Origin: Candidatus Gastranaerophilales bacterium
GTDB lineage: Bacteria > Cyanobacteriota > Vampirovibrionia > Gastranaerophilales > Gastranaerophilaceae
Direction of reading: 5' to 3'
Length of the DNA: 38,305 nt
NCBI GenBank assembly: GCA_944323435.1
Contig: CALUSN010000003.1
Location: forward strand, 1 to 38,305
A program made the translations under genes and the position numbers. Under the pieces are notes generated by a model that did not search any database, had not been told where the DNA came from, and was given only the letters and a program-made list of their open reading frames with translations. Within the stretch, counting starts at the first letter, position 1. Each line of letters starts with the position of its first letter. Of this stretch, positions 24,873 to 38,305 are shown piece by piece.

Positions 24873-24948
24873 GCCCCCATCGTCTAGAGGCCTAGGACAA
24901 CACCCTTTCACGGTGTAGACAGCGATTCGAATTCGCTTGGGGGTACCA
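24873..24948 (+). tRNA. tRNA-Glu(UUC), CCA encoded
   Basis: A full cloverleaf. The acceptor 5' GCCCCCA pairs with TGGGGGT (G1-U72 wobble), with A73 and an encoded CCA. The D arm is CGTCTAGAGGCCTAGGACA. The anticodon stem CACC/GGTG holds the loop CTTTCAC with anticodon TTC. The T arm is AGCGA-TTCGAAT-TCGCT. G1-U72 with A73 resembles cyanobacterial and plastid tRNA-Glu. The 3' part from the anticodon loop onward (24905-24948) is the integration site of the element on its right and is duplicated at 35905. Confidence 0.97.
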
Positions 24949-24949
24949 T
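24905..24949 (+). other. attL core of element 1 (45 bp, 3' half of tRNA-Glu)
   Basis: From CTTTCACGG in the anticodon loop to ACCAT just past CCA, identical to 35905-35949. Integration rebuilds the intact tRNA here. Confidence 0.93.
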
Positions 24950-24957
24950 ATAATAAT

Positions 24958-24982
24958 AGAGGGCATTTGAGCCCTCTTTTTT
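24958..24982 (+). terminator. Rho-independent terminator after tRNA-Glu, carried by element 1
   Basis: AGAGGGC-ATTTGA-GCCCTCT followed by a T run, 9 bp past the attL core. It lies inside the element, so it replaces the terminator displaced by integration. Confidence 0.88.
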
Positions 24983-25011
24983 AGTGCTTATAATGTTGAA
25001 AATATCTCATT

Positions 25012-25031
25012 TTGTCACAGAAATTGTCACA
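25012..25031 (+). other. candidate integrase arm-type sites, left end
   Basis: Two direct copies of TTGTCACA with starts 12 bp apart (25012, 25024), 63 bp inside the attL core. The same pair with the same spacing and orientation occurs at the right end (35748, 35760). Confidence 0.6.
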
Positions 25032-25063
25032 ATGTATAAGAAATTATTGGGTGAACTGTAACT

Positions 25064-25492
25064 TTATTTTCCTTGTTTCTTGAACTCTAGGAACTTCGCA
25101 TAAGAAACAATGTCTGCAACTTCTTCTTTTGTATAGTCTTGACTTGCAAGAAATGAACTTAAATCGTCATATTTGCTTACAGTATCATCTATAATAACTT
25201 TAGAATTATTATTTAGTTTCTCAGCACCCTTTTTCATCTCATCAAACATCTCTGATGTAGGTACTTCTAGAACTTCGCATAAACGGATTAAAGTTTCTAA
25301 TCTTGGCATTGATTTCTTATTCTCTAAATCTGATATAACAGCCGTGCCAATTCCAGTCATGATATTGAGGTCTTTGATGATTATTCCTCTTGCTTTTCTT
25401 TTATTAAAGAAGAATACACCCATCTTCTTTAATATTTCTTTTTCATATCGCTCTGCCTGTGCTTTGACCTCTTTAGAATTCTTCATTTTCAT
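25064..25492 (-). CDS. XRE-family repressor-like regulator
   Basis: 142 residues. A helix-turn-helix domain lies at about residues 35-85 (IKDLNIMTGIGTAVISDLENKKSMPRLETL), with a helical C-terminal part that could dimerise. A start 6 nt later (25486) fits the AAGGAG site slightly better. It is transcribed divergently from the excisionase-integrase pair, with two promoters and palindromic sites between, as in temperate-phage and island control switches. Likely role: repress xis-int and tune its own level. It resembles the regulator at 37719 in position and in the ISDLEN recognition-helix region. Confidence 0.85.
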   Translation of the reverse strand: MKMKNSKEVKAQAERYEKEILKKMGVFFFNKRKARGIIIKDLNIMTGIGTAVISDLENKKSMPRLETLIRLCEVLEVPTSEMFDEMKKGAEKLNNNSKVIIDDTVSKYDDLSSFLASQDYTKEEVADIVSYAKFLEFKKQGK

Positions 25493-25509
25493 ATCTCCTT
25501 ATAATGCAT

Positions 25510-25538
25510 ATATTACAATAATATCTTTGTCTTGTCAA
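25510..25538 (-). promoter_or_regulatory. promoter of the element 1 repressor gene
   Basis: On the minus strand: TTGACA (25538-25533), 17-bp spacer, TAATAT (25515-25510), ~18 bp before the start codon. Near-consensus sigma-70 type. Confidence 0.75.
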
Positions 25539-25540
25539 TT

Positions 25541-25561
25541 ACCGATGTGCATCACATCGGT
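25541..25561. promoter_or_regulatory. 21-bp palindromic operator candidate
   Basis: ACCGATGTG-CAT-CACATCGGT, perfect 9-bp arms, placed next to the -35 box of the repressor promoter. A shorter relative, CCATG-TGT-CATGG, lies at 25610-25622 inside the divergent promoter. Confidence 0.65.
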
Positions 25562-25598
25562 ATAATATTACCATTATTTGAACCGCATCAAAAAAAGC

Positions 25599-25628
25599 TT
25601 GACAAGAGTCCATGTGTCATGGTAGTAT
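25599..25628 (+). promoter_or_regulatory. promoter of the excisionase-integrase operon
   Basis: TTGACA (25599-25604), 18-bp spacer, TAGTAT (25623-25628). The spacer contains CCATGTGTCATGG, so a repressor bound there would block it. Confidence 0.6.
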
Positions 25629-25685
25629 TGAATTATGAAAATCAGAAACACGTCATATAATGATAATATATAAAGGAGAAAATTT

Positions 25686-25907
25686 ATGAAATCAGCACAA
25701 AGTACAGAAATAAGGCAGTATATGACAATCTCAGAAGTAGCAGCGTATCTTGGTATAGACTATTTCCACGCTTACAAGCTACTTAATGAAGATAATACAA
25801 TGTCATATCTTAAATACGGAAGAAAGAAAGTCTGGTTATTTACAGATATAGAGAACTTCCGTTTAAAACATTTAATTACCCCAGATAATAAATCAAAAGG
25901 AGAATGA
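25686..25907 (+). CDS. excisionase-like small DNA-binding protein
   Basis: 73 residues with an AAAGGAG site. MTISEVAAYLGIDYFHAYKLL near residues 14-34 and YGRKKVWLFTDIENFRLKH near 48-66 form a MerR-like winged HTH of the HTH_17/Xis type (helix-turn-helix, then a basic wing). Such proteins bend DNA at att sites and steer the integrase toward excision. Its stop is 1 nt before the integrase start and the integrase ribosome site lies inside it, so the two are co-translated. It is homologous to the protein at 37316-37531. Confidence 0.8.
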   Translation: MKSAQSTEIRQYMTISEVAAYLGIDYFHAYKLLNEDNTMSYLKYGRKKVWLFTDIENFRLKHLITPDNKSKGE

Positions 25908-25908
25908 T

Positions 25909-27039
25909 ATGAAGGGAAACGTATATTCTTACAAGACCAAGACTAAAGGTCAATTGTGGGGGTACGTGCATGATGCACCAACTCCGACAAAGAAACGTAA
26001 TCAAATCAGAAAAACTGGTTTCGCTACTGAAAAAGAGGCAAGTGCAGCTATGAGAAAATCAATGATTGATTATGATGCAGGTAAACTTGAACTTAGTGAT
26101 ATGAAAGTTGCTGATGTAATTCAAGTATACCTTGATTATGCAAAGAATGAAGGTAAGCGTGCAAAAGGCACGATTGCAAACTATGAAGGTGTATATAAAA
26201 ATCATTTACATGTTCTTAAGGACAAGTCTGTAAAAAATATAAAGCAGGTCGAGATACAAGATTGGAAAAGGGAACTATACAATCAAGGTGTTAGTGATAA
26301 TGTATTTAACTGTTGTGTAAAGTTGCTAAAAGTATCATTTAACTATGCAATTGAACTAGAATTGTTGCAAATTAATCCATTTAGAAGATTAAAAGCTGAA
26401 AAAATCCCAAAGAAGCACCGTAACAGATTTAGCATTGAGGAATTGCAAGAATTATTTAATATATGTTTTTCTGAATTCAAAGAATATTATTGCCTATTTG
26501 CTTTATCAGTGATGACTGGCATGAGAGTTGGAGAGTACATTGCTCTACAAACTTCTGATATTAATTTTTCAACTAATGTTATATCCGTTAGTAAACAATT
26601 AACTAGGGGCGACAGGCATAAACCTAAAACTCTTTCTTCTGTCAGAGATGTTGATATTTCTGATGAACTTGTTAACATTCTAAAATGGCATATTGATACA
26701 TTTAATATTAAAGACGGTGACTTCTTATTCCGTGCTGATGAGGGTGGATTGTTGTATCAGAAATGGGTTGAAAGAAAGTTCAAACGCTTACTTATCCTTG
26801 CAGGTTTTGATGAAAACTATTGCAGAGTACACGACCTAAGAGGTCAATATGTAGATTTAATGCACTACCTTGATGTAGGCATTGAATACATATCAAAGCA
26901 AGTCGGTCATAGTGACTCGAAAATCACTTCTAATTCATATTCTGAAATACTTAAGTGTATGCCAGTCAAAGTAAATAAAGCACTAGATAGATTGTTATTC
27001 AACAAATTTAGTTTTGATACTCTTTCAAGCTATGGTTAG
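25909..27039 (+). CDS. int: tyrosine site-specific integrase of element 1
   Basis: 376 residues. Residues 1-~55 are an arm-binding-like N terminus, ~60-165 the SAM-like core-binding domain (VADVIQVYLDYAKNEG ... INPFRRL), and ~170-360 the catalytic domain. Active residues visible are R206 (TGMRVGEY), H308 and R311 (VHDLRG), H334 (VGHSD) and the nucleophile Y344 (SNSYSEI). The family of Tn916/phage-type integrases cuts and rejoins DNA at att sites, commonly in tRNA genes, which fits the 45-bp repeats in tRNA-Glu. It is directly downstream of the excisionase-like gene. The integrase at 36166 is related (same TGMRVGEY and RVHDLRG motifs). Confidence 0.95.
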   Translation: MKGNVYSYKTKTKGQLWGYVHDAPTPTKKRNQIRKTGFATEKEASAAMRKSMIDYDAGKLELSDMKVADVIQVYLDYAKNEGKRAKGTIANYEGVYKNHLHVLKDKSVKNIKQVEIQDWKRELYNQGVSDNVFNCCVKLLKVSFNYAIELELLQINPFRRLKAEKIPKKHRNRFSIEELQELFNICFSEFKEYYCLFALSVMTGMRVGEYIALQTSDINFSTNVISVSKQLTRGDRHKPKTLSSVRDVDISDELVNILKWHIDTFNIKDGDFLFRADEGGLLYQKWVERKFKRLLILAGFDENYCRVHDLRGQYVDLMHYLDVGIEYISKQVGHSDSKITSNSYSEILKCMPVKVNKALDRLLFNKFSFDTLSSYG

Positions 27040-27081
27040 CGTTTAGGCACATTACTTTTACTTTATGTAATAAGGTAATGA

Positions 27082-27178
27082 ATTAACTAATTAGTATTAT
27101 GTAGTGTTATGTAACTAAATTAAAGAAAGTAATGAAAATAATAATACTAATTAGTTAATGAGATTTTGCAAAATCTCA
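27082..27178. other. inverted repeats downstream of the integrase
   Basis: ATTAACTAATTAGTATTAT (27082-27100) and its exact reverse complement (27141-27159) are separated by 40 nt. They are followed directly by a perfect 20-bp palindrome, TGAGATTTTGCAAAATCTCA (27159-27178). The first could end int transcription or form part of an origin. No gene is seen in 27040-27390. Confidence 0.7.
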
Positions 27179-27180
27179 CA

Positions 27181-27308
27181 ACATGAAAGAAAAGATAGTA
27201 GAGCTTTATGACTTTGCGAAGTTATTAAGTTTTAGTATATAGGTTCGTAAAGGACTGACTCTACTATTTAATGGTTTTATTTCATGTGCAAGTTTAGTTC
27301 TTGCACAT
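27181..27308 (+). ncRNA. candidate structured RNA or origin: nested stem-loops
   Basis: Three nested helices: ACATGAAA (27181-27188) with TTTCATGT (27280-27287); ATAGTAGAG (27195-27203) with CTCTACTAT (27259-27267); CTTTATGA (27204-27211) with TCGTAAAG (27245-27252, one G-U). They share one long hairpin. An overlapping alternative, ATGTGCAAG/CTTGCACAT (27284-27308), would compete with the outer helix. It lies upstream of the possible replication gene, so a cis-acting leader RNA or a replication origin are both possible. Not a known family to me. Confidence 0.4.
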
Positions 27309-27390
27309 TTCATTCACAGAAATATTACCTTTTAAAGTAGAAATAATAGAAATTGAACCATTAATTAAAACTTTGAGTAGAGGAATAGAG

Positions 27391-28650
27391 ATGTACGTAA
27401 GAACAGCAGAAGAACAGAAGAAACAATCAGAGCAGCTTGAAAAGCTGACAATGAAATTTCAACTCCTAATAAATGTAGGTGGAGAATTCTTTGACAAGAA
27501 TGATAATTTACTGGAAAACGCACACCAAATTGCACAAGCGGTGCTAAAAGGTGCACAAGTACAACTAAGTATCAATCAACCCGCAATGGTATTAAAAGCG
27601 ATACCGACACGCATTCTGAAACCTTGTATAAAAAATCTAATACAGATAACACTCCTGGCAACAAAAGAAACTGTTATTGTATTTAAGTGCAACGATGATG
27701 TAGAACATCAACTTGCACAGCTTGGTACAGAAGATGAAGAAGAAATCATGCCATTCTTAAATGGAATTTCATTAACAATTAGTAGGTACAATATTCCTAG
27801 TTTCAATAAGGCAACTACACTACATACATTTTACACTCCACCAACATTAACCAAGAAGCAAGTTAATGTAATTCTTGATGTAGCTGAACGGCTTAAAAAT
27901 GATAAGGACTACTATATACTTCTAAGCGATGATATAAACCTAGCTTACAATATGCCGATGAATATATTAAATGTACTGGGTGAAAATGTCCTATCTTTAA
28001 GTGCTTTGTCATTATTAGAGGTAATAATGGTGTATGCCACTAACAGCTCTGCTGTATACAGACAAAAGAATGATTGCGTTAAATCGTTTAAGATACCTTT
28101 AGAATTCTTTAGCAATTCGGATTTTCATTTCAACCAATCTAAAGAGGATATTATTAAGAACTTAGAGGCATTACTCGAAATCGGGTTGATAGATGACTAT
28201 ATTTGCGAAGATGATAATTTCATTATCGACTCACACCTAATAGTCAAGCAAATAAAGCAATATTCGTACAAGCAGCATATAGGCTTTTATCGTGGACTTG
28301 AACTAAAACAGCAAGAATATGTATATACCTTTATAAATTACGTTAACTGGATTAAGAACCTTAACTACTTCAAGAAAGACAATGAAACAGGCAAATATAC
28401 AACGTACAGAGCCGAAGTGTTAACAATACCGTTATCATCGCTATTATACAACCTTGATTTAGTTAAGTATAAAAGTGACCATATTGCCCTTGCGAAAATG
28501 CTCACTAATTGCCTACGTGCAGGCATAAAATGTGACTTGCTTCAATATCAAGGTTTAGATGAAATTGCCCCTAGTGTTGTCAATAATCTTTTACATCATA
28601 GGGATAATTTCAGAGAAGTGTTTGTACTAAAAGCATATAAGAAGAAATAG
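27391..28650 (+). CDS. uncharacterised protein, possibly replication-associated
   Basis: 419 residues from the ATG at 27391, chosen because AGAGG lies 7 nt upstream; the frame is open back to a TTG at 27301. I do not recognise the family. Residues ~1-30 are a charged helix (EEQKKQSEQLEKLTMKFQ). Around residues 220-300, SALSLLEVIMVYATNSSAVY, then FKIPLEFFSNSDFHFNQ and DIIKNLEALLEIGLIDDY look like winged-helix elements, as in some plasmid/island replication initiators. No Walker motif or nuclease motif is evident. Position right after integrase and a structured intergenic region is where small islands often keep their rep gene. Function uncertain. Confidence 0.6.
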   Translation: MYVRTAEEQKKQSEQLEKLTMKFQLLINVGGEFFDKNDNLLENAHQIAQAVLKGAQVQLSINQPAMVLKAIPTRILKPCIKNLIQITLLATKETVIVFKCNDDVEHQLAQLGTEDEEEIMPFLNGISLTISRYNIPSFNKATTLHTFYTPPTLTKKQVNVILDVAERLKNDKDYYILLSDDINLAYNMPMNILNVLGENVLSLSALSLLEVIMVYATNSSAVYRQKNDCVKSFKIPLEFFSNSDFHFNQSKEDIIKNLEALLEIGLIDDYICEDDNFIIDSHLIVKQIKQYSYKQHIGFYRGLELKQQEYVYTFINYVNWIKNLNYFKKDNETGKYTTYRAEVLTIPLSSLLYNLDLVKYKSDHIALAKMLTNCLRAGIKCDLLQYQGLDEIAPSVVNNLLHHRDNFREVFVLKAYKKK

Positions 28651-28653
28651 AAT

Positions 28654-28974
28654 ATGTTACGAATTAACTTATTTAATAGGTTTCCTGTATCAGCCTTAAC
28701 AGATACAGAATTAGCAGTAAGAAATATTGATATGCTTAACATCAATAATATTGAAAAGGCATTACCTAATTTCTATACCGACCAACTTTCTGCTGATATG
28801 AGAATGTTAAATCATGCAGCAGAAAAACTTTCAAATGCACTTGAAGATGAAGAATTTTCAAGTGAAGAAAGTGAAATTATCAATAACCGCTTACACATAG
28901 CGTATAAATTGATTGACCTTTATAATCAGGCATGGCAACAACTTCGCTATGGTTATGTGCCTTACGAGGATTAA
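28654..28974 (+). CDS. hypothetical protein
   Basis: 106 residues starting 3 nt after the stop of the previous gene, so probably in one operon with it. Mostly acidic and helical (SADMRMLNHAAEKLSNALEDEEFSSEESEI), without signal peptide, membrane segment or known motif. It ends with a short aromatic tail (WQQLRYGYVPYED). The ribosome site is weak, which fits coupling to the upstream gene. No function can be given. Confidence 0.6.
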   Translation: MLRINLFNRFPVSALTDTELAVRNIDMLNINNIEKALPNFYTDQLSADMRMLNHAAEKLSNALEDEEFSSEESEIINNRLHIAYKLIDLYNQAWQQLRYGYVPYED

Positions 28975-29082
28975 AATGCTTGTTTCGGGGGTACGTTTAT
29001 ACCTAGCAAGTATTAAACGTGCCTCTACGGTCATTCTGACACGTCTGATTTTAGATTTTAAGTAACTAATGGAGAAATTGAA

Positions 29083-29292
29083 ATGGAAAATAACAAAGAC
29101 ATTAACCAAGACCTTGTAAAGAAAATAGCACTTCAAGTGTTAAAAGATTATGAACAACGGCACAAAGACGGTGTGGTAAAGGTTACAAAAGTTGCTACAC
29201 CTCCCACCCCAACTGAAAGAGCGGAAAAATTGCATGCAAAAGTTCGTACAGCGTATATGAAGAAATTACTGCCCGGACTCGAAAAGAAATAG
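29083..29292 (+). CDS. small hypothetical protein
   Basis: 69 residues with a GGAGA site 7 nt before the ATG. Lysine-rich and helical (DLVKKIALQVLKDYEQRH), a proline break (TPPTPTERA) and another basic helix (AKVRTAYMKKLLPGLEKK). Could bind nucleic acid, but no domain is recognised. Probably the last gene of the rightward operon that starts at 27391. Confidence 0.6.
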   Translation: MENNKDINQDLVKKIALQVLKDYEQRHKDGVVKVTKVATPPTPTERAEKLHAKVRTAYMKKLLPGLEKK

Positions 29293-29346
29293 CCGTCAAT
29301 CGCAGTATAGGAGAATGTTTGATTCCCCTCTTTTCATATCCCAAAC

Positions 29347-29383
29347 TTACCCACCGTGTCTGTCCTACGGACATTGTGGGTAA
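29347..29383. other. stem-loop with 8-bp outer arms
   Basis: TTACCCAC (29347-29354) pairs with GTGGGTAA (29376-29383), and TGTCC/GGACA pairs inside. No T run follows, so it is not a simple terminator. It lies in the 270-bp gap between convergent gene groups, a fitting place for an origin, resolution or transfer site, but no motif decides. The rest of 29293-29562 shows nothing else. Confidence 0.5.
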
Positions 29384-29562
29384 TGCAGGTATGGTAATTC
29401 ACACTATAACAAGTATTCGCATATACATTGACCGCTAAAAGCCTTATAAATAAAGGCATTTGCACCGATAGAGATATTTTGCTTTAAAGTGATTTTTTCA
29501 TGGTTAGTTGCCTGCCCACTTTTCACGAGTGCCATGGAGTTTACGGACTGCGGCACACGAGC

Positions 29563-29799
29563 CTATTCAAAAATTGCCAAAATCAAACCGCCAAGACATA
29601 ACAAAAGAGTTCCACCAAGTATAATTACCCAAAACAAAAAGACTGCACCACCTATGATGTCGAATATCAACGGTGTTTTGACTGAATGTCCTTGAATCCT
29701 GCTTGCTTTCGCATTATCCATGATTCTGAAAATCATGTTTGCCCTGAAGTATTTATTAGCAAGACTTTGAGATAGATAGTCTATTTCATTCTTATTCAT
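29563..29799 (-). CDS. small membrane protein
   Basis: 78 residues. Residues 1-~38 are polar and basic (DYLSQSLANKYFRANMIFRI). Residues ~43-77 are strongly hydrophobic (PLIFDIIGGAVFLFWVIILG, then GTLLLCLGGLILAIFE), enough for one long or two short membrane spans with a Gly-rich middle. Its start overlaps the stop of the upstream serine recombinase gene by 8 nt, so they are co-transcribed. Family not recognised. Confidence 0.6.
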   Translation of the reverse strand: MNKNEIDYLSQSLANKYFRANMIFRIMDNAKASRIQGHSVKTPLIFDIIGGAVFLFWVIILGGTLLLCLGGLILAIFE

Positions 29800-30439
29800 G
29801 ACTACTGCCTTTTAGACCTTTAGCCAATTTATAATAAGATGTTTTTTTTAAGCCGAGTTCATTCATGGCTTGTACATGGGTAATATCGCCCCGGCATGCA
29901 CTTTCGTACAATTCTTTAAAATTAGACGGTAGCTTAACCGTCGGACGTCCTAACTTCATTCCACGAGCCTTACGCTCTGCAAGACTGTTTTTAGTCCTTA
30001 TAGATACGTTTCTTTTTTCCATAGCACCCAGTACGCTCATAACGGCTAATATGATTTGTTTAAGACCCTGTTGTACTATATCCTCATTCCCATTTCTGAA
30101 CGTGCATAGGATTTGTTCCATTGGGTTAAGGCTTACAAATTCAGCTTTCTTATCCTCTATAATTTCTCTATATAGTGCCTGTAAGCCACTTGTAGAACGG
30201 TGCAACCTAAAGCATTCAAAGACGACAACTGTGTCGCCCTCTCGTAGATTTTCCAGTAAAACAGGTAGCTGTTGCCTCTTATTTACTGGGGTATCACCTT
30301 GACACTTGTCTTTATATATCGTTGATATGGTTACATTGTTCTGTTCTGCCCATTTATTTATTGCATACTCTTGATTTTCAATGGTCATGCCGTCTTTCTT
30401 ACTTACACGTGCGTAACCGTATATTCTCGTTTCTGCCAT
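29792..30439 (-). CDS. serine recombinase (resolvase/invertase type)
   Basis: 215 residues from the ATG at 30439, which has an AGAGG site and gives the usual MAETRIYGYARVS start; the frame is open to 30466. The catalytic Ser is in YARVSKKDG (about residue 11), and conserved Arg residues lie in FECFRLHRSTSG (about 68-75) and RTKNSLAERKARG (about 150-162). Residues ~165-215 are a helix-turn-helix DNA-binding end (LGRPTVKLP ... GLKKTSYYKLAKG), so it is the small resolvase/invertase type. It is a second recombinase in an element that already has a tyrosine integrase, and may resolve dimers or invert a segment. Its recombination site is not identified. Confidence 0.88.
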   Translation of the reverse strand: MAETRIYGYARVSKKDGMTIENQEYAINKWAEQNNVTISTIYKDKCQGDTPVNKRQQLPVLLENLREGDTVVVFECFRLHRSTSGLQALYREIIEDKKAEFVSLNPMEQILCTFRNGNEDIVQQGLKQIILAVMSVLGAMEKRNVSIRTKNSLAERKARGMKLGRPTVKLPSNFKELYESACRGDITHVQAMNELGLKKTSYYKLAKGLKGSSHE

Positions 30440-30480
30440 TATTAACCTCTCATTCTGCCCTAGCAATAGGGCATTTAGCC

Positions 30481-30756
30481 CTATGCTATTACAAAACGTC
30501 TGCTTGCAACTTGTTTAATAAACGCATTATACAAATCTGCATGCAATCTCTTGAAGTTGGTAGTATCAAAGCGATTAGAAAGAATTGAAGTAAATCTTAT
30601 AATCACGTTTCCTAAGTCTAATACTTCTAATTCTCTTGACTCCATTTCATCTTTAATCATAGCTTCTCTTGCTGCGATTTCAGCTTTTAAGCTGTCTGCT
30701 TGTGCATAAAGGTCTTGCAATTCTGCAACTGTGTTTCTGATTTCTTGGTTTTTCAT
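30481..30756 (-). CDS. hypothetical coiled-coil protein
   Basis: 91 residues with an AAGGAG site. Residues ~5-45 are a predicted coiled coil (TVAELQDLYAQADSLKAEIA) and the rest is a small mixed region (VIIRFTSILSNRFDTTNFKR). No catalytic motif. Small proteins of this type are common in phage-like islands, with no defined role. It is the first gene of the leftward recombinase operon and has a strong promoter with operator-like repeats upstream. Confidence 0.6.
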   Translation of the reverse strand: MKNQEIRNTVAELQDLYAQADSLKAEIAAREAMIKDEMESRELEVLDLGNVIIRFTSILSNRFDTTNFKRLHADLYNAFIKQVASRRFVIA

Positions 30757-30792
30757 TTTGTTATCTCCTTATGTTTCGTTCCTTACATTATT

Positions 30793-30821
30793 ATTATGGC
30801 AGATAGTTCGTAAAATGTCAA
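30793..30821 (-). promoter_or_regulatory. promoter of the leftward recombinase operon
   Basis: On the minus strand: TTGACA (30821-30816), 17-bp spacer, CATAAT (30798-30793). GTTCGTAAAAT (30806-30816) lies across the spacer and -35 box. Confidence 0.75.
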
Positions 30822-30916
30822 TACATTAACGAACGTTTGTTAAGATACGCTGCGATATTTTACGAACCAATTTGAACACAGTTTTCTAACGTCCGTATAA
30901 CGAACGTTTTACGGAC
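30806..30916. promoter_or_regulatory. cluster of operator-like repeats
   Basis: GTTCGTAAAAT (30806-30816) has an inverted partner ATTTTACGAAC (30857-30867). ACGAACGTTT occurs at 30829-30838 and 30900-30909, the second within GTCCGTA...TACGGAC arms (30891-30916). The cluster lies between the XRE regulator and the promoter of the next genes, so binding by that regulator is the simplest reading. Confidence 0.6.
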
Positions 30917-30931
30917 TATATAAAGGTAAAT

Positions 30932-31261
30932 CTATTTAAGTTCAAGGACACTTGAAACGATATTATAAATAAGTCCGATTTGTACCTTATTAGCGGTTGA
31001 TAACAATTTATTTAACTTCTCGATTGTTTCGACATCTGCTTCTAATGGTGCTGATATAAAGAACTGATACAAGTCCACTCCAAGAACCTCAGCAATGCGA
31101 ATTAATTTTGTCATACTTACAAGGTTCTTACCAGTTTCATAATGTGCAAGCGTTGACGGTTCACATTGTACCTTTTCAGATAACTGTAATTGACTTAGTC
31201 CTGCTAACTCTCTAAAATGTCTAATCCTTGCACCGATTGATATTGAAACATCTGTTTTCAT
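30932..31261 (-). CDS. XRE-family regulator
   Basis: 109 residues. Residues ~8-65 are a canonical XRE helix-turn-helix: IGARIRHFRELAGLSQLQLS, then EPSTLAHYETGKNLVSMTKL and IRIAEVLGVDLYQFF. The C-terminal ~40 residues form helices for dimerisation. It is the second repressor-like gene in the element, separate from the one beside int. It probably controls the leftward operon through the repeats at 30806-30916 and may also act on the divergent cargo promoter at 31300-31340. Confidence 0.85.
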   Translation of the reverse strand: MKTDVSISIGARIRHFRELAGLSQLQLSEKVQCEPSTLAHYETGKNLVSMTKLIRIAEVLGVDLYQFFISAPLEADVETIEKLNKLLSTANKVQIGLIYNIVSSVLELK

Positions 31262-31299
31262 AGCCTTATTATCCTTTCTCTGTTGAAATAAATCACTAG

Positions 31300-31340
31300 T
31301 AAATAGTGCCTGTTGGCTGGCACTATTTATCTGTTATGAT
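31300..31340 (+). promoter_or_regulatory. cargo promoter with overlapping inverted repeat, leaderless start
   Basis: TTGGCT (31313-31318), 16-bp spacer, TATGAT (31335-31340). The -10 ends 6 bp before the ATG of the next gene, so transcription may begin at or next to the start codon; no ribosome site is present. An inverted repeat with 10-bp perfect arms, AAATAGTGCC/GGCACTATTT (31301-31328), covers the -35 box and spacer, as an operator would. Confidence 0.55.
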
Positions 31341-31346
31341 TTACCT

Positions 31347-31820
31347 ATGAAAAAGGTTTTTGTACTTCTAATGCTGTTTATAACAACACTTTCGGCAATA
31401 GCCTATCCTTTTAAGTATGAAACCTGCAATTTAGGATATAAACACGTTCACCACAAGCACAATGAAGCAAGCTATCAGCAGGCATGGTGTAATGCTCATA
31501 ATGGAATAATGGAGTTTGAAAATAGTGATTTTACACGTATTGATTGTCTTACTAAAACTCATGCTGTTGAATTTGACTTTGCAAACAAATGGCACGAAAG
31601 CGTAGGACAGGCTTTACACTACGGAATAATGACAGGTAAAAAGCCTATGGTAGTATTGATATTAGATGAACCAGAGAAACAAATGGTTTATTATAACAGA
31701 GTTAAACGTATTGGAAAGAAATATAAGTTTGATGTTGAATACGTTACTAATGACATCTTACATATTGACGGAAATGACAAATGCTTAAATCCAATGTGTA
31801 AATGTCATAATATTCAATAA
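31347..31820 (+). CDS. secreted protein with PD-(D/E)XK nuclease-like core
   Basis: 157 residues. Residues 1-~19 are a signal peptide (KKVFVLLMLFITTLSAIA). After it, WCNAHNG, FTRIDCLTKTHAVEFDF and NKWHESVGQALHYG match the pattern of a family of small exported proteins with a restriction-endonuclease-like core: D66, E75-x-D77, K81 and Q88 occupy PD-(D/E)XK-like positions, though the usual ExK reads ExD. MVVLILDEPE follows as the next strand. Six cysteines after the signal (27, 48, 67, 146, 150, 152) suggest disulfides or a metal site at the CLNPMCKCH end. Activity is unproven. First gene of the cargo. Confidence 0.65.
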   Translation: MKKVFVLLMLFITTLSAIAYPFKYETCNLGYKHVHHKHNEASYQQAWCNAHNGIMEFENSDFTRIDCLTKTHAVEFDFANKWHESVGQALHYGIMTGKKPMVVLILDEPEKQMVYYNRVKRIGKKYKFDVEYVTNDILHIDGNDKCLNPMCKCHNIQ

Positions 31821-31821
31821 G

Positions 31822-32526
31822 TTACCTATTAGAACCACCAATGACGTTGTAATCAAAAGTGAAATCAATATCAATTGATTGTCCATTGTAGTTGCTAGGT
31901 AAAGGTCTAAACGGTGCAGTTAGTTCTATTGCAGTAAGGGCTGCCCTATCAGTTGAAGGAGAGCCAGACGATTGTTTTATTTTACTTGATATTAACCTTC
32001 CATCTTTGGCTATTTTCATAGATACTACTGTTTTTTGTGTTGAATTGGCTTTTGGAGGATTCCAATTCAACTTAATTCTTCTTTGAAGTTCTTTCATATA
32101 AGGTGCAAAATCAACATTTGATATATTAGTTCTTTCACTTCCAAAGAAGTTACTACTTTTACTTCCAAAGAAGTTACTACTTATGTTATTGTTTTTAGAA
32201 AAATAGTGATACACAAGCTCTGATATTGTATCTGGGATTATTCTTTCTGATACACTTGATTTACTTGATGAAACAAGAGCATCACTTTTATTATATGTAT
32301 ATGATTGTTCAGTTGTTATTTTCTTTTCTGCAAGATTCAAATATATTAGCTCTTTTACAGAACCATTACTAATATTATTTTTGAGCCAGAAGCGAACTCC
32401 ACCGTCAGTATATTCTATAGTGTCTGTATCATAATAAACATTATCTTCAATTTTCTTCCAATTTGTTGCTTGAGCAACGTTTATACTGCCAATAATAAGT
32501 AATATAACTATTAGAATCTTCTTCAT
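31822..32526 (-). CDS. exported protein with TonB-type C-terminal domain
   Basis: 234 residues from the ATG at 32526 (AAGGA site; a TTG 15 nt upstream is unlikely). Residues 1-~21 are a signal peptide (ILIVILLIIGSINVAQA). Residues ~22-105 form a beta-rich domain starting NWKKIEDNVYYDTDTIEY, like adhesin-E-type domains. Residues ~140-230 are a TonB C-terminal domain (YMKELQRRIKLNWNPPK, VVSMKIAKDGRLISSKIKQS, DRAALTAIELTAPFRPLP). A cleaved signal instead of a membrane anchor makes a classical energy transducer unlikely. It is a paralogue of the protein at 34745 in both domains. It faces the nuclease-like gene with a 1-nt gap between stops. Confidence 0.75.
   Translation of the reverse strand: MKKILIVILLIIGSINVAQATNWKKIEDNVYYDTDTIEYTDGGVRFWLKNNISNGSVKELIYLNLAEKKITTEQSYTYNKSDALVSSSKSSVSERIIPDTISELVYHYFSKNNNISSNFFGSKSSNFFGSERTNISNVDFAPYMKELQRRIKLNWNPPKANSTQKTVVSMKIAKDGRLISSKIKQSSGSPSTDRAALTAIELTAPFRPLPSNYNGQSIDIDFTFDYNVIGGSNR
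32137..32182. repeat. 24-bp tandem repeat, two copies
   Basis: A 24-bp unit starting ACTTCCAAAGAAGTTACTAC at 32137, repeated at 32161 (22 of 24 bp before divergence). It duplicates eight residues (SSNFFGSK/SSNFFGSE) in the linker before the TonB-type domain, and is a whole number of codons. Confidence 0.9.
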
Positions 32527-32600
32527 ATCATTCCTTAACAAACTTGTATATTTACCATGTTTACTCTATTATCTTATCATAAACAAGAAGGAGTGTTGAT

Positions 32601-33296
32601 ATGAAAAAAGGGTTTCTAAATAAGATATTGTATGCTAGTTTCAAATTTGGTAAAGTATTTGCGGTACTTGCTTTAATCGTTTTGGTATTAACCATGATTG
32701 GTTCTGGAGTTTATTTGCTAAAAATAGACAATCCAAAGATTGTTACACCACAATTTGAAGTGGTAAAACAAGCTCTTGAGAATGAAAATAGTAGTTCATA
32801 TTCCGATTCTTCATCTGATTATGTATCAACAAATGTTATAAGAAAAGAAAAAGCAGAAAAGAAATATAAACAGATTATCGAAAATATAGTAGAAACTGCA
32901 AAATTAAAACCTTTTGCATATGATATGATTTTAACTAATGTTGCAAAATATGATTCAAAATACCAAAGTCAGTATTTAGAAGGATTAAGTTCCTTTATTC
33001 CTGATGGATTAAAATATATTCACGATAAATACAAAGTGAATACCAATAACGTTTCTGTATCTAAACAGGCATTATCAGGTGTTATAGAGGAATATAATAG
33101 AATGTTTGATGCTGAGATTTCACGTGTTGATAGTGAAAAGATGTCGCAAATACAGGAAAAAATAGTCGCAGGAAGCACGCTTGCTATTAGTATATTGTTG
33201 TTTGTTATTTGTCTATTTTTACCTTTACTAATTAAGATAGAAGAAAACACTCGTCAACAATTAGAATTAACCCTAAAGGGAAATGAAAATGCGTAA
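32601..33296 (+). CDS. two-TM membrane protein
   Basis: 231 residues with an AAGGAGTG site. TM1 is about residues 17-41 (VFAVLALIVLVLTMIGSGVY) and TM2 about 191-211 (STLAISILLFVICLFLPLLI). The ~150 residues between are polar, Ser-rich at first (SSSYSDSSSDYVS) and then helical with many Lys/Glu, and should lie outside the cytoplasmic membrane. A short charged tail follows TM2. Family not recognised. It overlaps the lipoprotein gene by 8 nt, so they are translated together. Could be a scaffold or sensor for the exported partners. Confidence 0.7.
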   Translation: MKKGFLNKILYASFKFGKVFAVLALIVLVLTMIGSGVYLLKIDNPKIVTPQFEVVKQALENENSSSYSDSSSDYVSTNVIRKEKAEKKYKQIIENIVETAKLKPFAYDMILTNVAKYDSKYQSQYLEGLSSFIPDGLKYIHDKYKVNTNNVSVSKQALSGVIEEYNRMFDAEISRVDSEKMSQIQEKIVAGSTLAISILLFVICLFLPLLIKIEENTRQQLELTLKGNENA

Positions 33297-34734
33297 GTTT
33301 AGAATATTACTAGTATTTTGTACTTGTGTATTGCTATTATCTGGATGTGGAAATAAAGCTAATCAAAAATCATCAGAAATAGCTAACAAAAAAGAAATAA
33401 CAACAAACTACATATATAACAATGAACCTAAGTTTACAATAGCTCAAAGAATTGGTAATAAAGTTCTTTATGGCTTTATAGATAAATCTGGTAAAGAGGT
33501 TGTTAAGCCAAAGTATTATGCTGTAGGTTTATATAATGATGGTGTAGCTATGGTAACAGAGTATAAAGATAACCAACTATTTTATGGTTTAATTGATAGT
33601 CTTGGTAATACCATATTACCCTCAGAATATGATGGAATAACTTATTTCTCAGAAGATTTAGCAGTTGTAAAATCTGCGGGGAAATCTGGATATGCAAATA
33701 AAAAAGGGAAGTTTATTATATATCCAAAGTATGATTTTGGTTATGTATTCAAAGAAGGTATAGCAAAAGTTATTGTCGAGGGAAAAGTAGGATTTATAAA
33801 CAAAAAAGGAGAATATATAATTTATCCTAAATATGATAAGACAGACAATATAGCAGATATTACTGGATTTATGGGCGGTTTGACTATTGTTAAGAGTAAT
33901 GGTAAATATAGTGTTATAAATAAGTCGGGTGCAGTTATTAAAACGCTTGACTTTGATTCTGTTGTCGATTTTGCTAATGATAGATATAAAGTATCAAAGA
34001 ACAAAAAATACGGTCTGATTAATGCCTCTGGAAATATAGTTCTGGAAACTAAATATAATTCATTAAAGAGCTTAGATAAGGATGGTAAATTCATTGCTTT
34101 TTCAAATAGTGAAAATAAATATGGTGTAATGGACAAATCTCTTAAGGAAATAATACCTGCAAAATACAGTAATAATGTGTTTTATGGAGATGGTATTATT
34201 ACCACATATGATAATGCTGACAATAAAACGCTTTTGTTTGATTCTAAGGGTAAATTGCTTGCAAAGTCCGATTATAAACTAAAAGGTGGCTTTTCAAATG
34301 AATTGTGTTTGGTAGAAACTCAAGATTCGATTTATCAAGGGTATATTAATAAGAAAGCAGAAATAATAATACCTTTAAAATATTCAAAAGCAACTGATTA
34401 TAAAGATGGATTAGCATTTGTTATGGAAGCAAAAGCGAATGAGGTTATTGTTGGCTATATAGATACTAAAGGTAATTATATTTGGAAAACAAATACCTTA
34501 TTTACTCCAGAAGAATTAATACAGGTAAAAAGTGGACAATCTGCATCAAAGCCCAAAGAAGTTGCAAAGAAAACAACTGTTTCTAACACAAAAAGAAAGT
34601 ATTCTAACAATAATAGTGGTTACTACAATAATTACTATTATTATGATGATTATGATAACTATAGTTATGGTAATTACTCTAAACCAAGCAAATCTCAGGA
34701 TTTTGTAGATGCAGAAAATGATATATTAAACTAG
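33289..34734 (+). CDS. WG-repeat lipoprotein
   Basis: 481 residues from the ATG at 33289, chosen because AAGGG is 8 nt upstream and the ATGCGTAA overlap with the previous gene is a standard coupling; the ATG at 33283 is the alternative. The lipobox LLLSGC places the lipid-bearing cysteine at residue 20. Residues ~55-400 hold about nine WG-type repeats, each near 30-45 residues, with the pattern YGFIDKSGKEVVKPKY: GFID, GLID, GYAN, GFIN, GLIN, GVMD, GYIN and GYID. They are expected to form a propeller or open beta structure that binds partners. The end is Asn/Tyr-rich and low in complexity (NNYYYYDDYDNYSYGNY). Likely anchored in the membrane facing out. Confidence 0.82.
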   Translation: MRKFRILLVFCTCVLLLSGCGNKANQKSSEIANKKEITTNYIYNNEPKFTIAQRIGNKVLYGFIDKSGKEVVKPKYYAVGLYNDGVAMVTEYKDNQLFYGLIDSLGNTILPSEYDGITYFSEDLAVVKSAGKSGYANKKGKFIIYPKYDFGYVFKEGIAKVIVEGKVGFINKKGEYIIYPKYDKTDNIADITGFMGGLTIVKSNGKYSVINKSGAVIKTLDFDSVVDFANDRYKVSKNKKYGLINASGNIVLETKYNSLKSLDKDGKFIAFSNSENKYGVMDKSLKEIIPAKYSNNVFYGDGIITTYDNADNKTLLFDSKGKLLAKSDYKLKGGFSNELCLVETQDSIYQGYINKKAEIIIPLKYSKATDYKDGLAFVMEAKANEVIVGYIDTKGNYIWKTNTLFTPEELIQVKSGQSASKPKEVAKKTTVSNTKRKYSNNNSGYYNNYYYYDDYDNYSYGNYSKPSKSQDFVDAENDILN

Positions 34735-34744
34735 GAGAGTGGTA

Positions 34745-35569
34745 ATGAAAAAGGCACTTATATATTTATTAACGATACTATTTATATCGGCAAATGTAGT
34801 ATATGCTGCTAATTGGGTAACAATAAAGGCTTCTAACGGGAAAACAGCATTATTAGATACTCAGAACATTGACATATCAAATCAATATGTCAAATATTGG
34901 GTGAAAGCAACAAAAAGTGGATATACTTATAGATACTATATGATGTCTGATTGTAGTTCTCAAACAAGTTGTATTATTGAAACCTATAAATACGATAGTA
35001 CGGGAAAAGTTGTTGACAGTAGTGAAAATGGTATTAATTTAGAAAAAATAGTACCAGATACGCTAAACGAAGCATTATATAGAAATGTTTGTGAAATAGT
35101 TAGAAAAAATCCTTTAAGCATTGAACCAGCAGTATGGACTACCTATCTTGAAGATGTTAGTAAGCAAATAAAATCTTCTTGGAAACCAAAATATAGTAAA
35201 ACAAAAGAGAAAAGTCTTATAGCATCTGTATCGTATAAGATTGATAAGAATGGTAATATTCTGTCAAGAGAAATTACACAAAGTTCTGGAAATGAAGATT
35301 ATGACAACTCTGTAAATGAAGCGATAAACACCATAAAATCGTTTGCGGCTTTACCAAGTTCCTTTGAAGGTGATTTGGAGTTTATGATTACTTTTAACTA
35401 TGCAATAAAAGGTGATGCTATAGCTGAGTCAGTAACAATGAATTCAAATGGAATAGGTGAAATTCTAATATCTAAATCTAAATTTCATCCGGGTGAAGCA
35501 GTAGTAAATGGTGTTGTTTGTATTATTGCTTTACCATTTGTAATTTTAGGTGCTTTGGCTACACAATAA
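34745..35569 (+). CDS. exported protein with TonB-type C-terminal domain
   Basis: 274 residues from the ATG at 34745 (GGAG site; a GTG two codons upstream is possible). Signal peptide residues 1-~21 (ALIYLLTILFISANVVYA). Domain 1 (~22-105) begins NWVTIKASNGKTALLDTQNI and matches the first domain of the protein at 31822. The TonB-like part (~130-220) has YLEDVSKQIKSSWKPK, ASVSYKIDKNGNILSREITQ and FAALPSSFEGDLEFMITF. Unlike its paralogue, it has a C-terminal hydrophobic stretch (VVNGVVCIIALPFVILGALA) that may span the membrane. One Cys pair in domain 1 (CSSQTSC). Last gene of the cargo before the right att site. Confidence 0.75.
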   Translation: MKKALIYLLTILFISANVVYAANWVTIKASNGKTALLDTQNIDISNQYVKYWVKATKSGYTYRYYMMSDCSSQTSCIIETYKYDSTGKVVDSSENGINLEKIVPDTLNEALYRNVCEIVRKNPLSIEPAVWTTYLEDVSKQIKSSWKPKYSKTKEKSLIASVSYKIDKNGNILSREITQSSGNEDYDNSVNEAINTIKSFAALPSSFEGDLEFMITFNYAIKGDAIAESVTMNSNGIGEILISKSKFHPGEAVVNGVVCIIALPFVILGALATQ

Positions 35570-35904
35570 AGTACATAAATTTCATGTCCATATTGTGTCC
35601 ATTTGATATGTTAATTCATGGTATCAGTATTTAATTCAATGGGGCTGAAAGTATTGATTTTTCATTCCACGATACCCTCTGAACACGACTCATACCAGTG
35701 AGAACTGAAATAGCATTGCATATAATTATTTCGATAGTATAATAATATTGTCACAGATTTTGTCACATAAATCTATTAAATTAGTTAAATTGACTAAATC
35801 TGACAAAATTCCTCAAGCACATTGAATACTAAAAACTGTTGATATGACTATATTCTATCAAATTGGTTAAAATAGTTAAATCCATTAAAAATAGAGTATA
35901 TTTT
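35570..35904. other. right-end non-coding region of element 1
   Basis: No gene seen. It contains the candidate arm sites (35748-35767) and imprecise repeats of an AAATTAGTTAAATTGACTAAATC type near 35775-35885 (compare AAATTGGTTAAAATAGTTAAATC near 35858), which may be further recombination-protein sites. It ends at the attR core. Confidence 0.55.
35748..35767 (+). other. candidate integrase arm-type sites, right end
   Basis: TTGTCACA at 35748 and 35760, direct, 12 bp between starts: the same octamer, orientation and spacing as at 25012/25024. It lies 138 bp before the attR core. Confidence 0.6.
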
Positions 35905-35949
35905 CTTTCACGGTGTAGACAGCGATTCGAATTCGCTTGGGGGTACCAT
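35905..35949 (+). other. attR core of element 1, likely also attL of element 2
   Basis: 45 bp identical to 24905-24949. Bases before 35905 do not continue the tRNA, so this is only the displaced 3' half and not a gene. It is followed by the same kinds of parts as attL (terminator at 35966, 12-bp-spaced octamers at 36028). Confidence 0.93.
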
Positions 35950-35965
35950 TTAAAAATAAAAATAT

Positions 35966-35991
35966 GACTGGTTTTTAGACCAGTCTTTTTT
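35966..35991 (+). terminator. Rho-independent terminator after the att core
   Basis: GACTGGT-TTTTAG-ACCAGTC followed by a T run, 17 bp past the core. The sequence differs from the attL terminator, but position and role match. Confidence 0.85.
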
Positions 35992-36027
35992 GTTATATAG
36001 AATATTTTATTCGTAAAAAGTCCTAAT

Positions 36028-36047
36028 TGCTAATATATCTGCTAATA
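36028..36047 (+). other. candidate arm-type sites of element 2
   Basis: TGCTAATA at 36028 and 36040, direct, 12 bp between starts, 79 bp past the core. This is the same layout as the TTGTCACA pair in element 1 but a different octamer, as expected for a different integrase. Confidence 0.45.
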
Positions 36048-36112
36048 AAAAATATCTTTGAGATTTTAAGGTTTGTATTTTAAGTATAATTAATCAAATA
36101 TTATATAAAAAA

Positions 36113-36137
36113 AAGAGGAGTCAGCCATCACTCCTCT
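36113..36137 (-). terminator. Rho-independent terminator of the element 2 integrase gene
   Basis: Read on the minus strand: AGAGGAGT-GATGGCTG-ACTCCTCT followed by a run of Ts, 29 bp after the integrase stop. Confidence 0.88.
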
Positions 36138-36165
36138 ATATAGTCTATAATTTGATATTTTTGTT

Positions 36166-37305
36166 CTAATCTACAAACATCGCATTAAATTTTTTCATTG
36201 CTTCTTTTGTGTGTTCATCAAGTAAATTTGTATAAATATCAGATGTTGTAGAGGTCTTGCTGTGTCCGACTTCTCGTGAAGTAATCTCTGTTGGATTACC
36301 AGCCGCATGCATTATATCTATGTATTCGCCACGTAAATCATGTACCCTCATAAAGTTTTCTGGTTTGCCATAGAGTTTAAGTAGCTTTTGAAATTTCCTA
36401 GAAACGTGTTTGCTTGATACAGGTTTTCCTGTACTATCTTTAAATAATAGTCCTGTTCTTATATCAAATTTTTCCATATGCCATAAAATTGCTTTTTCTA
36501 ATTCTTCTACCAAATGGACAAATCTATAAGAAGAACTTGTTTTAAGGATATCTTTATATTCGTTACGTGTATTTTGCTTGTTGACCTTTATAGTTTTATT
36601 GCGAAAATCTATATCTTCTACTTTGAGGGCAGAATATTCCCCTACTCGCATTCCTGTCATTATTGCTATGCAGTATAAACCATAATAACTTGGTAATTCT
36701 TTTTTGCATAATTTAATAGTTTCTTTTACTTCGGTTGTAGATAGTCTATTTCTAGGTAAAGACGAAGGGCAGGTTACTTCAATATCTTTGAAAGGGTTTA
36801 CTTTTATTTTATTTTTTTTAACACCATATCTAAATGCAGCTTTTAGGAACTTTACGCAATCATACTTTGTGTAGTTACTAATTTTGCCTCCTCCTCGTTG
36901 TTTCTTTTTCGTTCTAAGTTCATTTTCCCAATAATCAATATGGTCTTGGTTTATATTACAAACTTTTATGTCAACAAAGAATGAAAGATGATATTTCTTT
37001 AGTGATTTATAATTTTCTATTGTTCCTTTTGCTTTGCCTTCATCTTCTAGGTGTTTAATATAATTGTCCATTACCCAACCACAAGTTATTTCTTTGTTCA
37101 GCTCGATGTTGTTATTATCAATGCTATTCAAAAACTCTCTTTCTGCATCTAGAGCCTCTTTCATTGTTTTAAATCCCGCTTTAGTTTTTAATTTAACTTC
37201 TGGTTTACCAAATCTATCATATTTACCTGTTGGATAGTAAGCTCGAAATTCCCAAGAAGAGAATTTAGTTTTTGTTTTGTCTTTATATCTTTTTCCTACC
37301 GACAT
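36166..37305 (-). CDS. int: tyrosine site-specific integrase of element 2
   Basis: 379 residues. N-terminal arm-binding-like region with KTKAGFKTMKEALDAEREFL, core-binding domain ~75-185 (WVMDNYIKHLEDEGKAKGTI ... KVNPFKDI), catalytic domain ~195-370. Catalytic residues: R220 (TGMRVGEY), H322 and R325 (VHDLRG), the GHS histidine (REVGHSKTS) and Y358 (SDIYTNL). Closely related in plan and motifs to the integrase at 25909, so both may target tRNA-Glu. Unlike that one, it points toward the att core and ends 217 bp from it. An AAGGAG site precedes the ATG; the excisionase-like gene lies 10 nt upstream. Confidence 0.95.
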   Translation of the reverse strand: MSVGKRYKDKTKTKFSSWEFRAYYPTGKYDRFGKPEVKLKTKAGFKTMKEALDAEREFLNSIDNNNIELNKEITCGWVMDNYIKHLEDEGKAKGTIENYKSLKKYHLSFFVDIKVCNINQDHIDYWENELRTKKKQRGGGKISNYTKYDCVKFLKAAFRYGVKKNKIKVNPFKDIEVTCPSSLPRNRLSTTEVKETIKLCKKELPSYYGLYCIAIMTGMRVGEYSALKVEDIDFRNKTIKVNKQNTRNEYKDILKTSSSYRFVHLVEELEKAILWHMEKFDIRTGLLFKDSTGKPVSSKHVSRKFQKLLKLYGKPENFMRVHDLRGEYIDIMHAAGNPTEITSREVGHSKTSTTSDIYTNLLDEHTKEAMKKFNAMFVD

Positions 37306-37315
37306 GATTATCTCC

Positions 37316-37531
37316 TTATATTGTTAATGCTGTAAATGTCATAAGATGTCTGTTTTTGAAATCTAGGATTTCACTTTTTAACCATAATTTTTTTGTTCCA
37401 AACATTACGATTGTTAATGTTTTGTCCTGTAAAATATACTTTCTCGCTGTGTGATACTTTAGTCCCAATATTTTTTTAATTTCATTCATATCGACCAATG
37501 GTTCATTGCTGATATCTTTTTCCATGTCCAT
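37316..37531 (-). CDS. excisionase-like small DNA-binding protein
   Basis: 71 residues. VDMNEIKKILGLKYHTARKY at ~13-32 and MFGTKKLWLKSEILDFKNRH at ~43-62 form a MerR-like/HTH_17 domain, aligning with the protein at 25686 (KYGRKKVWLFTDIENFRLKH). A GGAG site precedes the ATG. It is co-transcribed with int and should act as directionality factor or regulator. Confidence 0.78.
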   Translation of the reverse strand: MDMEKDISNEPLVDMNEIKKILGLKYHTARKYILQDKTLTIVMFGTKKLWLKSEILDFKNRHLMTFTALTI

Positions 37532-37565
37532 CTCCTTTATTTCAAATTTAATATTCGTTATTATG

Positions 37566-37594
37566 AATATAACACATTGTATTTATTTTGTCAA
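37566..37594 (-). promoter_or_regulatory. promoter of the element 2 excisionase-integrase operon
   Basis: On the minus strand: TTGACA (37594-37589), 17-bp spacer, TATATT (37571-37566). Near-consensus. Confidence 0.72.
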
Positions 37595-37599
37595 TGCTA

Positions 37600-37666
37600 T
37601 AACGAATATATTATTCATTATAGATATTATAAAATAGTGCATAGCTTGTTCGAATAACATATTCGA
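37600..37666. promoter_or_regulatory. paired operator candidates
   Basis: TAACGAATA-TAT-TATTCATTA (37600-37620, one mismatch) and TCGAATA-ACA-TATTCGA (37650-37666, perfect) share the half-site CGAATA with a 3-bp centre. Two further half-sites (TATTCG, TGAATA) lie across the -10 box near 37553-37569. Probably bound by the divergent XRE protein. Confidence 0.65.
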
Positions 37667-37718
37667 TATTATTTGCAAAGATTTGGTTAATATGTTATTA
37701 TTAATTTTGGAGGTTGAT

Positions 37719-38192
37719 ATGTTTTTGGAATATAAACAAAATGGAGATGAAACTGATATGTTGGAAATATTAAGAGATAAAGATTTTCAACTAAATCCAT
37801 CATTAAAAATAGATGATATAAAAAAAGATATATGGGAATCTATCACATATTTAAAAAGAGCTAGGAATCAAATCGGTTGGACTATTGCGGAATTATCCAG
37901 AAAATCAGGGGTCAGTGTTGGTGTTATAAGTGATTTGGAAAATGAAAAAGGGAAAGTTCCATCACTTGCTAATTTTATAGCACTAACAAGAGCTTTAGGT
38001 ATGTCAAAGGAATTTGTTTTAGGGCTTGTGTTGGATTATAAAATTTGTAACAAGTCTCAAAAAGTTGATACTAGCAAATCGATAATTAATAATCTACAAG
38101 AATATGGCATTCATGATAAAGAATCTATCGACTTTATAATGAATACTATTAAATTTGTTAAAGATAGAAAAAAGAACAAAACGATAAACTAA
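37719..38192 (+). CDS. XRE-family repressor-like regulator
   Basis: 157 residues from the ATG at 37719, which has a GGAGG site 5 nt upstream; an earlier ATG in frame (37683) lacks one. Residues ~45-105 are the helix-turn-helix: IGWTIAELSRKSGVSVGVIS, DLENEKGKVPSLANFIALTR. The N-terminal ~40 residues and the C-terminal part (IINNLQEYGIHDKESIDFI) are helical. It is divergent from xis-int, like the regulator at 25064 in element 1, and is the likely repressor of element 2. Confidence 0.82.
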   Translation: MFLEYKQNGDETDMLEILRDKDFQLNPSLKIDDIKKDIWESITYLKRARNQIGWTIAELSRKSGVSVGVISDLENEKGKVPSLANFIALTRALGMSKEFVLGLVLDYKICNKSQKVDTSKSIINNLQEYGIHDKESIDFIMNTIKFVKDRKKNKTIN

Positions 38193-38305
38193 TCACTTGA
38201 TTTTTATCGCAGTAATGCCATTGGTATTACCATTTTTGTTTTCTACTGTAAATATTCTGTATGTACCTTCTTCTGTATTAACTGTAGTCGTATATATATA
38301 ATTTT
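38193..38305 (-). CDS. C-terminal end of a leftward gene, incomplete
   Basis: An open frame enters from the right edge on the minus strand and stops with TGA at 38193-38195, directly next to the stop of the XRE gene. It gives 36 residues ending VENKNGNTNGITAIKIK, with alternating Thr/Val/Tyr suggesting beta strands (YIYTTTVNTEEGTYRIFTV). Too little to name. Coding is likely because the frame is fully open and codon use fits, but not certain. Confidence 0.5.
   Translation of the reverse strand, partial: NYIYTTTVNTEEGTYRIFTVENKNGNTNGITAIKIK

Follow-up and report, generated by a model that had tools for sequence, protein, structure and literature searches.

Two related integrative elements of a mosaic family, apparently in tandem at a tRNA-Glu(TTC) gene of a Gastranaerophilales bacterium

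Our analysis of a 38,305-nucleotide stretch of DNA from a Candidatus Gastranaerophilales bacterium (referred to as the window) indicates that two integrative elements, both members of a single mosaic family, very probably lie in tandem at a tRNA-Glu(TTC) gene and arrived there by the mechanism proposed below. An earlier note on this DNA had suggested two related but distinct elements sharing the middle one of three attachment cores. This is still the best reading, and it is supported by arm repeats, by the related genome G039, by further relatives and by single elements. Element 1 (24905-35949) is complete. Since the window is an entire contig of a fragmented assembly (1.86 Mb, 162 contigs, 89% complete), the contig end falls inside element 2, which runs from 35905 to beyond 38305 and is interrupted after 2.36 kb. 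The target gene and the cores are:

24873..24948, + strand: tRNA-Glu(TTC), target gene (ARAGORN; Rfam RF00005)
24905..24949, + strand: core 1, attL of element 1, beginning at the 7-nt anticodon loop CTTTCAC
35905..35949, + strand: core 2, attR of element 1 and attL of element 2

The 45-bp core of the tRNA-Glu 3' half is indeed duplicated at a distance of exactly 11,000 bp. It extends from the anticodon loop through CCA plus one base, the copies share 96% identity over 54 bp, and just these two are found in the assembly. Terminator-like hairpins begin past each core near 24959 and 35965, as had been noted before. The Rfam search of the window matched nothing but the tRNA. The encoded CCA is missing from the tRNA-Glu of several relatives (L005, L013, L018, L021) and present in the window; it may have been brought in by the elements. 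Between its two cores, element 1 contains the following features:

25012..25031, + strand: arm-type pair, TTGTCACA-N4-TTGTCACA
25064..25492, - strand: repressor, HTH_3
25686..25907, + strand: excisionase-like protein (Xis), HTH_17
25909..27039, + strand: tyrosine integrase Int1 (Arm-DNA-bind_4, SAM-like, Phage_integrase; HDLRG and VGHS motifs)
27301..28650, + strand: p449, conserved backbone protein found in 17 of 383 genomes of the order
29792..30466, - strand: small serine recombinase (resolvase/invertase type)
30481..30756, - strand: p91, backbone protein in many elements of the family
30932..31261, - strand: HTH regulator of the backbone
31347..35569, no strand assigned: variable cargo (p157, TonB-like/adhesin-E-like and WG-repeat proteins)
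35580..35697, + strand: probable relic attachment arm of tRNA-Met type (TGTCCAT-N4-TGTCCAT at 35585; heptamer CTCATAC 104 bp on)
35748..35767, + strand: second arm-type pair of element 1

The second arm-type pair, located at the far end of element 1, was absent from the earlier description. Allowing up to 2 mismatches, 0.02 occurrences of the element 1 pair are expected in the window; it was found twice, both times exactly. No relaxase or conjugation domains were recognised in the searched proteins of element 1 with the libraries used, some small and cargo ORFs lying outside this search. None of the ten proteins searched matched a structural PHROG, so that they provided none of the structural or packaging genes by which a prophage or satellite would be recognised. 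A search of viral contigs with p449 gave no relative, and Int2, the integrase of element 2, has two relatives among them at 24% identity. An AlphaFold prediction for p449 from two sequences reached a mean pLDDT of 30, too low to be of use. Downstream of int1 (27082-27159), the two arms of a perfect inverted repeat, each 19 bp long, enclose a 40-bp loop. The visible part of element 2 comprises:

36028..36047, + strand: arm-type pair, TGCTAATA-N4-TGCTAATA (one copy seen)
36166..37305, - strand: tyrosine integrase Int2
37316..37531, - strand: excisionase-like protein
37683..38192, + strand: repressor, HTH_3 (60% identical to the repressor of a tRNA-Met element in G151)

Homologous proteins were confirmed in both integration kits, with 38% identity between Int1 and Int2 over 361 aa, 35% between the Xis proteins and 40% between the repressors over 45 aa. 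The octamer pairs past both cores, 25012-25031 and 36028-36047, also proved real. The claim that the same ordered kit follows each core did not hold, as the gene order is mirrored: counted from the core it is repressor(-), xis(+), int(+) in element 1 and int(-), xis(-), repressor(+) in element 2. Each element has a separate integrase, as tandem tRNA-targeted islands do. At the far end, element 1 has its own tRNA fragment and element 2 runs off the contig. In Pfam searches the catalytic domain scored above the cut-off in Int1 and Int2, and Arm-DNA-bind_4 above it in Int2 and just below it in Int1. Arm-binding, core-binding and catalytic domains, which characterise tyrosine integrases with arm-type sites, are thus represented. 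The Arm-DNA-bind_4 domain is shared with integrases of the Tn916/Tn1549 type, and the solved chains closest by sequence (6en0, 6emy and 6emz) belong to entries named Int protein. In Tn916/Tn1549-type elements paired direct repeats serve as arm sites. These elements insert at AT-rich sites, whereas those described here are tRNA-specific.

Matching arms at two cores were also found in G170, G232, G309 and G369. Across the elements the right arm pair has a 12-bp spacing and lies about +63 to +164 bp from the core. For the left pair the spacing is mostly 11 bp and the position -133 to -136; unlike in most elements, that of element 1 lies at -157 with a 12-bp spacing. The octamers of any one element agree, and those of different elements are usually distinct (TTGTCACA in element 1, TGCTAATA in element 2, TGGTAACG in G369, TTGTTACG in G309). 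In a permutation analysis the right-arm octamer of each of seven elements was sought at every left end; own-end matching was reached by 2 of 5040 permutations including the true one, for a set that is small and contains some related elements. The second equal permutation exchanges the window and G039, which share their octamer. G369 and G170 share one as well; hence, the arms are not private in every pair. Repeats occur on both sides of the crossover in element 1 and its relatives, and are seen on one side in element 2. A shared core combined with private arms may prevent neighbouring elements from excising each other.

The earlier note had proposed a search of related genomes for an empty site or single-element versions, and both were found. 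G039 carries a homolog of element 1 between two cores at the same tRNA (Int 87%, repressor 95% and p449 81% identical). Its right end is 96.7% identical through the core and is followed by different DNA, and its cargo consists of a C5 methylase and a HaeIII-type endonuclease (restriction-modification) replacing the WG-repeat and TonB-like genes. Past the middle core G039 has a TTTGGTAACGA pair and an autotransporter-like gene, and then a third core in decayed form. As G039 has element 1 with other DNA past the middle core, elements 1 and 2 are separable. The usual neighbour, a sugar transferase, lies directly 3' of the tRNA in ten genus members, and no element is found there. Relatives lacking one or both elements at the site, as expected for tandem islands, thus exist. 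Between the window and G039 the terminator segments (24950-25000 and 35950-36004) are swapped: core 1 and its terminator in either genome resemble core 2 and its terminator in the other. Homologous exchange across core and terminator is our guess.

The right end of element 2 was sought in the remaining assembly. No third core was found there, and no second TGCTAATA pair in the organism's own genome. In 20 further contigs there was likewise no TGCTAATA pair, and apart from one weak match to an integrase their only backbone matches were p157-like genes lying among chromosomal genes. The p157-like genes of contigs C58 and C80 were ruled out as parts of element 2 by their chromosomal neighbours. 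Contig C4, which carries the sugar transferase, was considered as right flank; it starts in the end of a uvrC-like gene without a core, and so the gap right of element 2 stays unclosed by it. At this contig end (L155) the uvrC-like gene precedes the usual downstream neighbour of tRNA-Glu, which reflects a rearrangement or a gap. The missing third core is no refutation of a second element, since the contig ends within element 2 and the assembly is fragmented and incomplete. Relatives of Int2 with 40-50% identity are present in G369, G093, G309, G201, G250 and G170 with a tRNA-Glu(TTC) nearby; the closest of them belong to other genera and adjoin this tRNA. G369 and G309 contain complete single elements of 7.7 and 6.8 kb between cores. 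Their layout is that of element 2, int(-), xis(-), repressor(+), followed by p91 and a serine recombinase, comparable to the backbone of element 1. Because of this shared layout element 2 is predicted to be of the same kind, and its unseen part and right end probably resemble these single elements.

Each element carries an excisionase, a repressor and a tyrosine integrase that includes an arm-binding domain, and would bring along a terminator and a tRNA 3' half of its own, CCA included. The crossover of each most likely lies in the anticodon loop CTTTCAC, because the core starts exactly at these 7 nt; anticodon-centred crossover is one standard class among the tRNA/tmRNA islands of Islander (PMC4383910). 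With a 3' half and terminator carried by the element, the tRNA would be rebuilt at every insertion, so that the intact tRNA would be the live target and the newest element would adjoin it. Element 2 would have entered first; element 1 would then have taken the rebuilt tRNA, displacing element 2 outward, and would now supply the 3' half of the gene. The decayed outer core of G039 agrees with this logic. The integrases would use the common core and grip it via private paired octamers on both flanks, and thus each should act on its own ends.

Element 2 could instead be a decayed remnant, reduced to a left end and integration genes, so that one live element would lie beside a fossil. Its right end was not found, and remnants do exist, as shown by the decayed third core of G039 and by integrase-less mini-elements in G175 and G270. 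However, the genes of Int2, Xis2 and repressor 2 all have open reading frames of full length, the arm pair is intact and core 2 perfect, and we regard a remnant as unlikely. It is very unlikely that both integrases belong to a single composite element whose mobile unit would extend from core 1 to a third core. In other systems, tandem islands have been documented to move as composites (PMC5704250), but element 1 has matched arms at both of its own cores and is present without element 2 in G039. A chimeric assembly, in which two strains with one element each were joined via the 45-bp core, is most improbable: although the source assembly is fragmented and contigs of several relatives end at tRNA-Glu, the repeat of 45-54 bp is shorter than the usual read length, and G039 independently has element 1 and, at core 2, another arm pair and a third core. 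Two separate elements in tandem thus remain our preferred reading. Counting against it are the missing right end of element 2, the off-pattern pair at -157, the octamer shared by G369 and G170, and the terminator swap, for which simple integration cannot account.

The block at 35580-35697 inside element 1 is probably the fossil of a target switch, judging by sequence comparison. From 35580 to CTCATAC it is 95% identical (104/109) to the tRNA-Met attachment arm of G112, and its identity to five other such arms is 89-93%. The TGTCCAT pair precedes CTCATAC by exactly 104 bp in 7 of 7 sequences, and in G151 and G211 it occurs at each end of elements that carry p449 and lie at tRNA-Met. Its 17-bp motif has 14 occurrences in 383 genomes, the reversed control none. 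In the window the tRNA half past the heptamer is lost (21/45). Elements near tRNA-Asp in G061 (contig C6) and G080, the latter with a large serine recombinase, retain the first part of the block alone. In G170 and G177 (loci L195 and L198) a TGTCCAT arm pair lies beside a different tRNA-like core, which suggests that one arm type is used with several targets. Either the attP-integrase cassette of the element was replaced, or a tRNA-Met element entered a tRNA-Glu element and then lost its left end; possibly the block was kept for a conserved function other than attachment. We tentatively propose, as somewhat short of an even chance, that the family keeps one tRNA core and diversifies its paired octamers at either end, so that stacked neighbours would excise independently, and that swapping of a contiguous attP-integrase cassette changed the target tRNA and left the fossil arm, element 1 being a former tRNA-Met element.

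Tandem islands at tRNA genes are already well known, and the present locus is one more case; added here are arms that match at the two ends and are mostly private, and a probable fossil of a target switch. The tandem islands of Islander likewise each have their own integrase and tRNA fragment; 125 arrays of two or more and 4 of three or more are given there, and arm repeats and relic sites do not figure in the passages considered here (PMC4383910). At the ssrA gene of Dehalococcoides, too, several non-duplicate islands lie in tandem at a single RNA gene, and some of them lack integration genes, but their integrase is of the large serine type and their repeat is 20 bp of ssrA, in place of tyrosine integrases and a 45-bp tRNA repeat (PMC3146451). 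Compared with ICE/IME/CIME accretion in Streptococcus and others, element 1 is without a recognised relaxase or conjugation gene. Our results describe a family of small integrative elements in the Gastranaerophilales with precise, testable predictions of arm sites. Private arms on a shared core would, if true, explain simply how different elements can share one gene in a stack without mutual excision, and in the tRNA-Met relic the sequence would have recorded a change of target by an island.

Other elements also occupy this tRNA. Mini-elements of 1.4-1.7 kb without integrase lie between two tRNA-Glu cores in G175 (L233) and G270 (L226); that of G175 encodes an apparent toxin-antitoxin pair (RelE/HigB-like by eye), and the octamers differ between its two ends. 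G065 (L089 4131-5624) and G068 (L095) carry an element with a large serine recombinase at the same tRNA-Glu. The C-terminus of this recombinase is encoded by the tRNA 3' end, read on the reverse strand, and is MVPPSEFESLSTP in G065. Hence, two unrelated recombinase classes exploit the tRNA-Glu gene.
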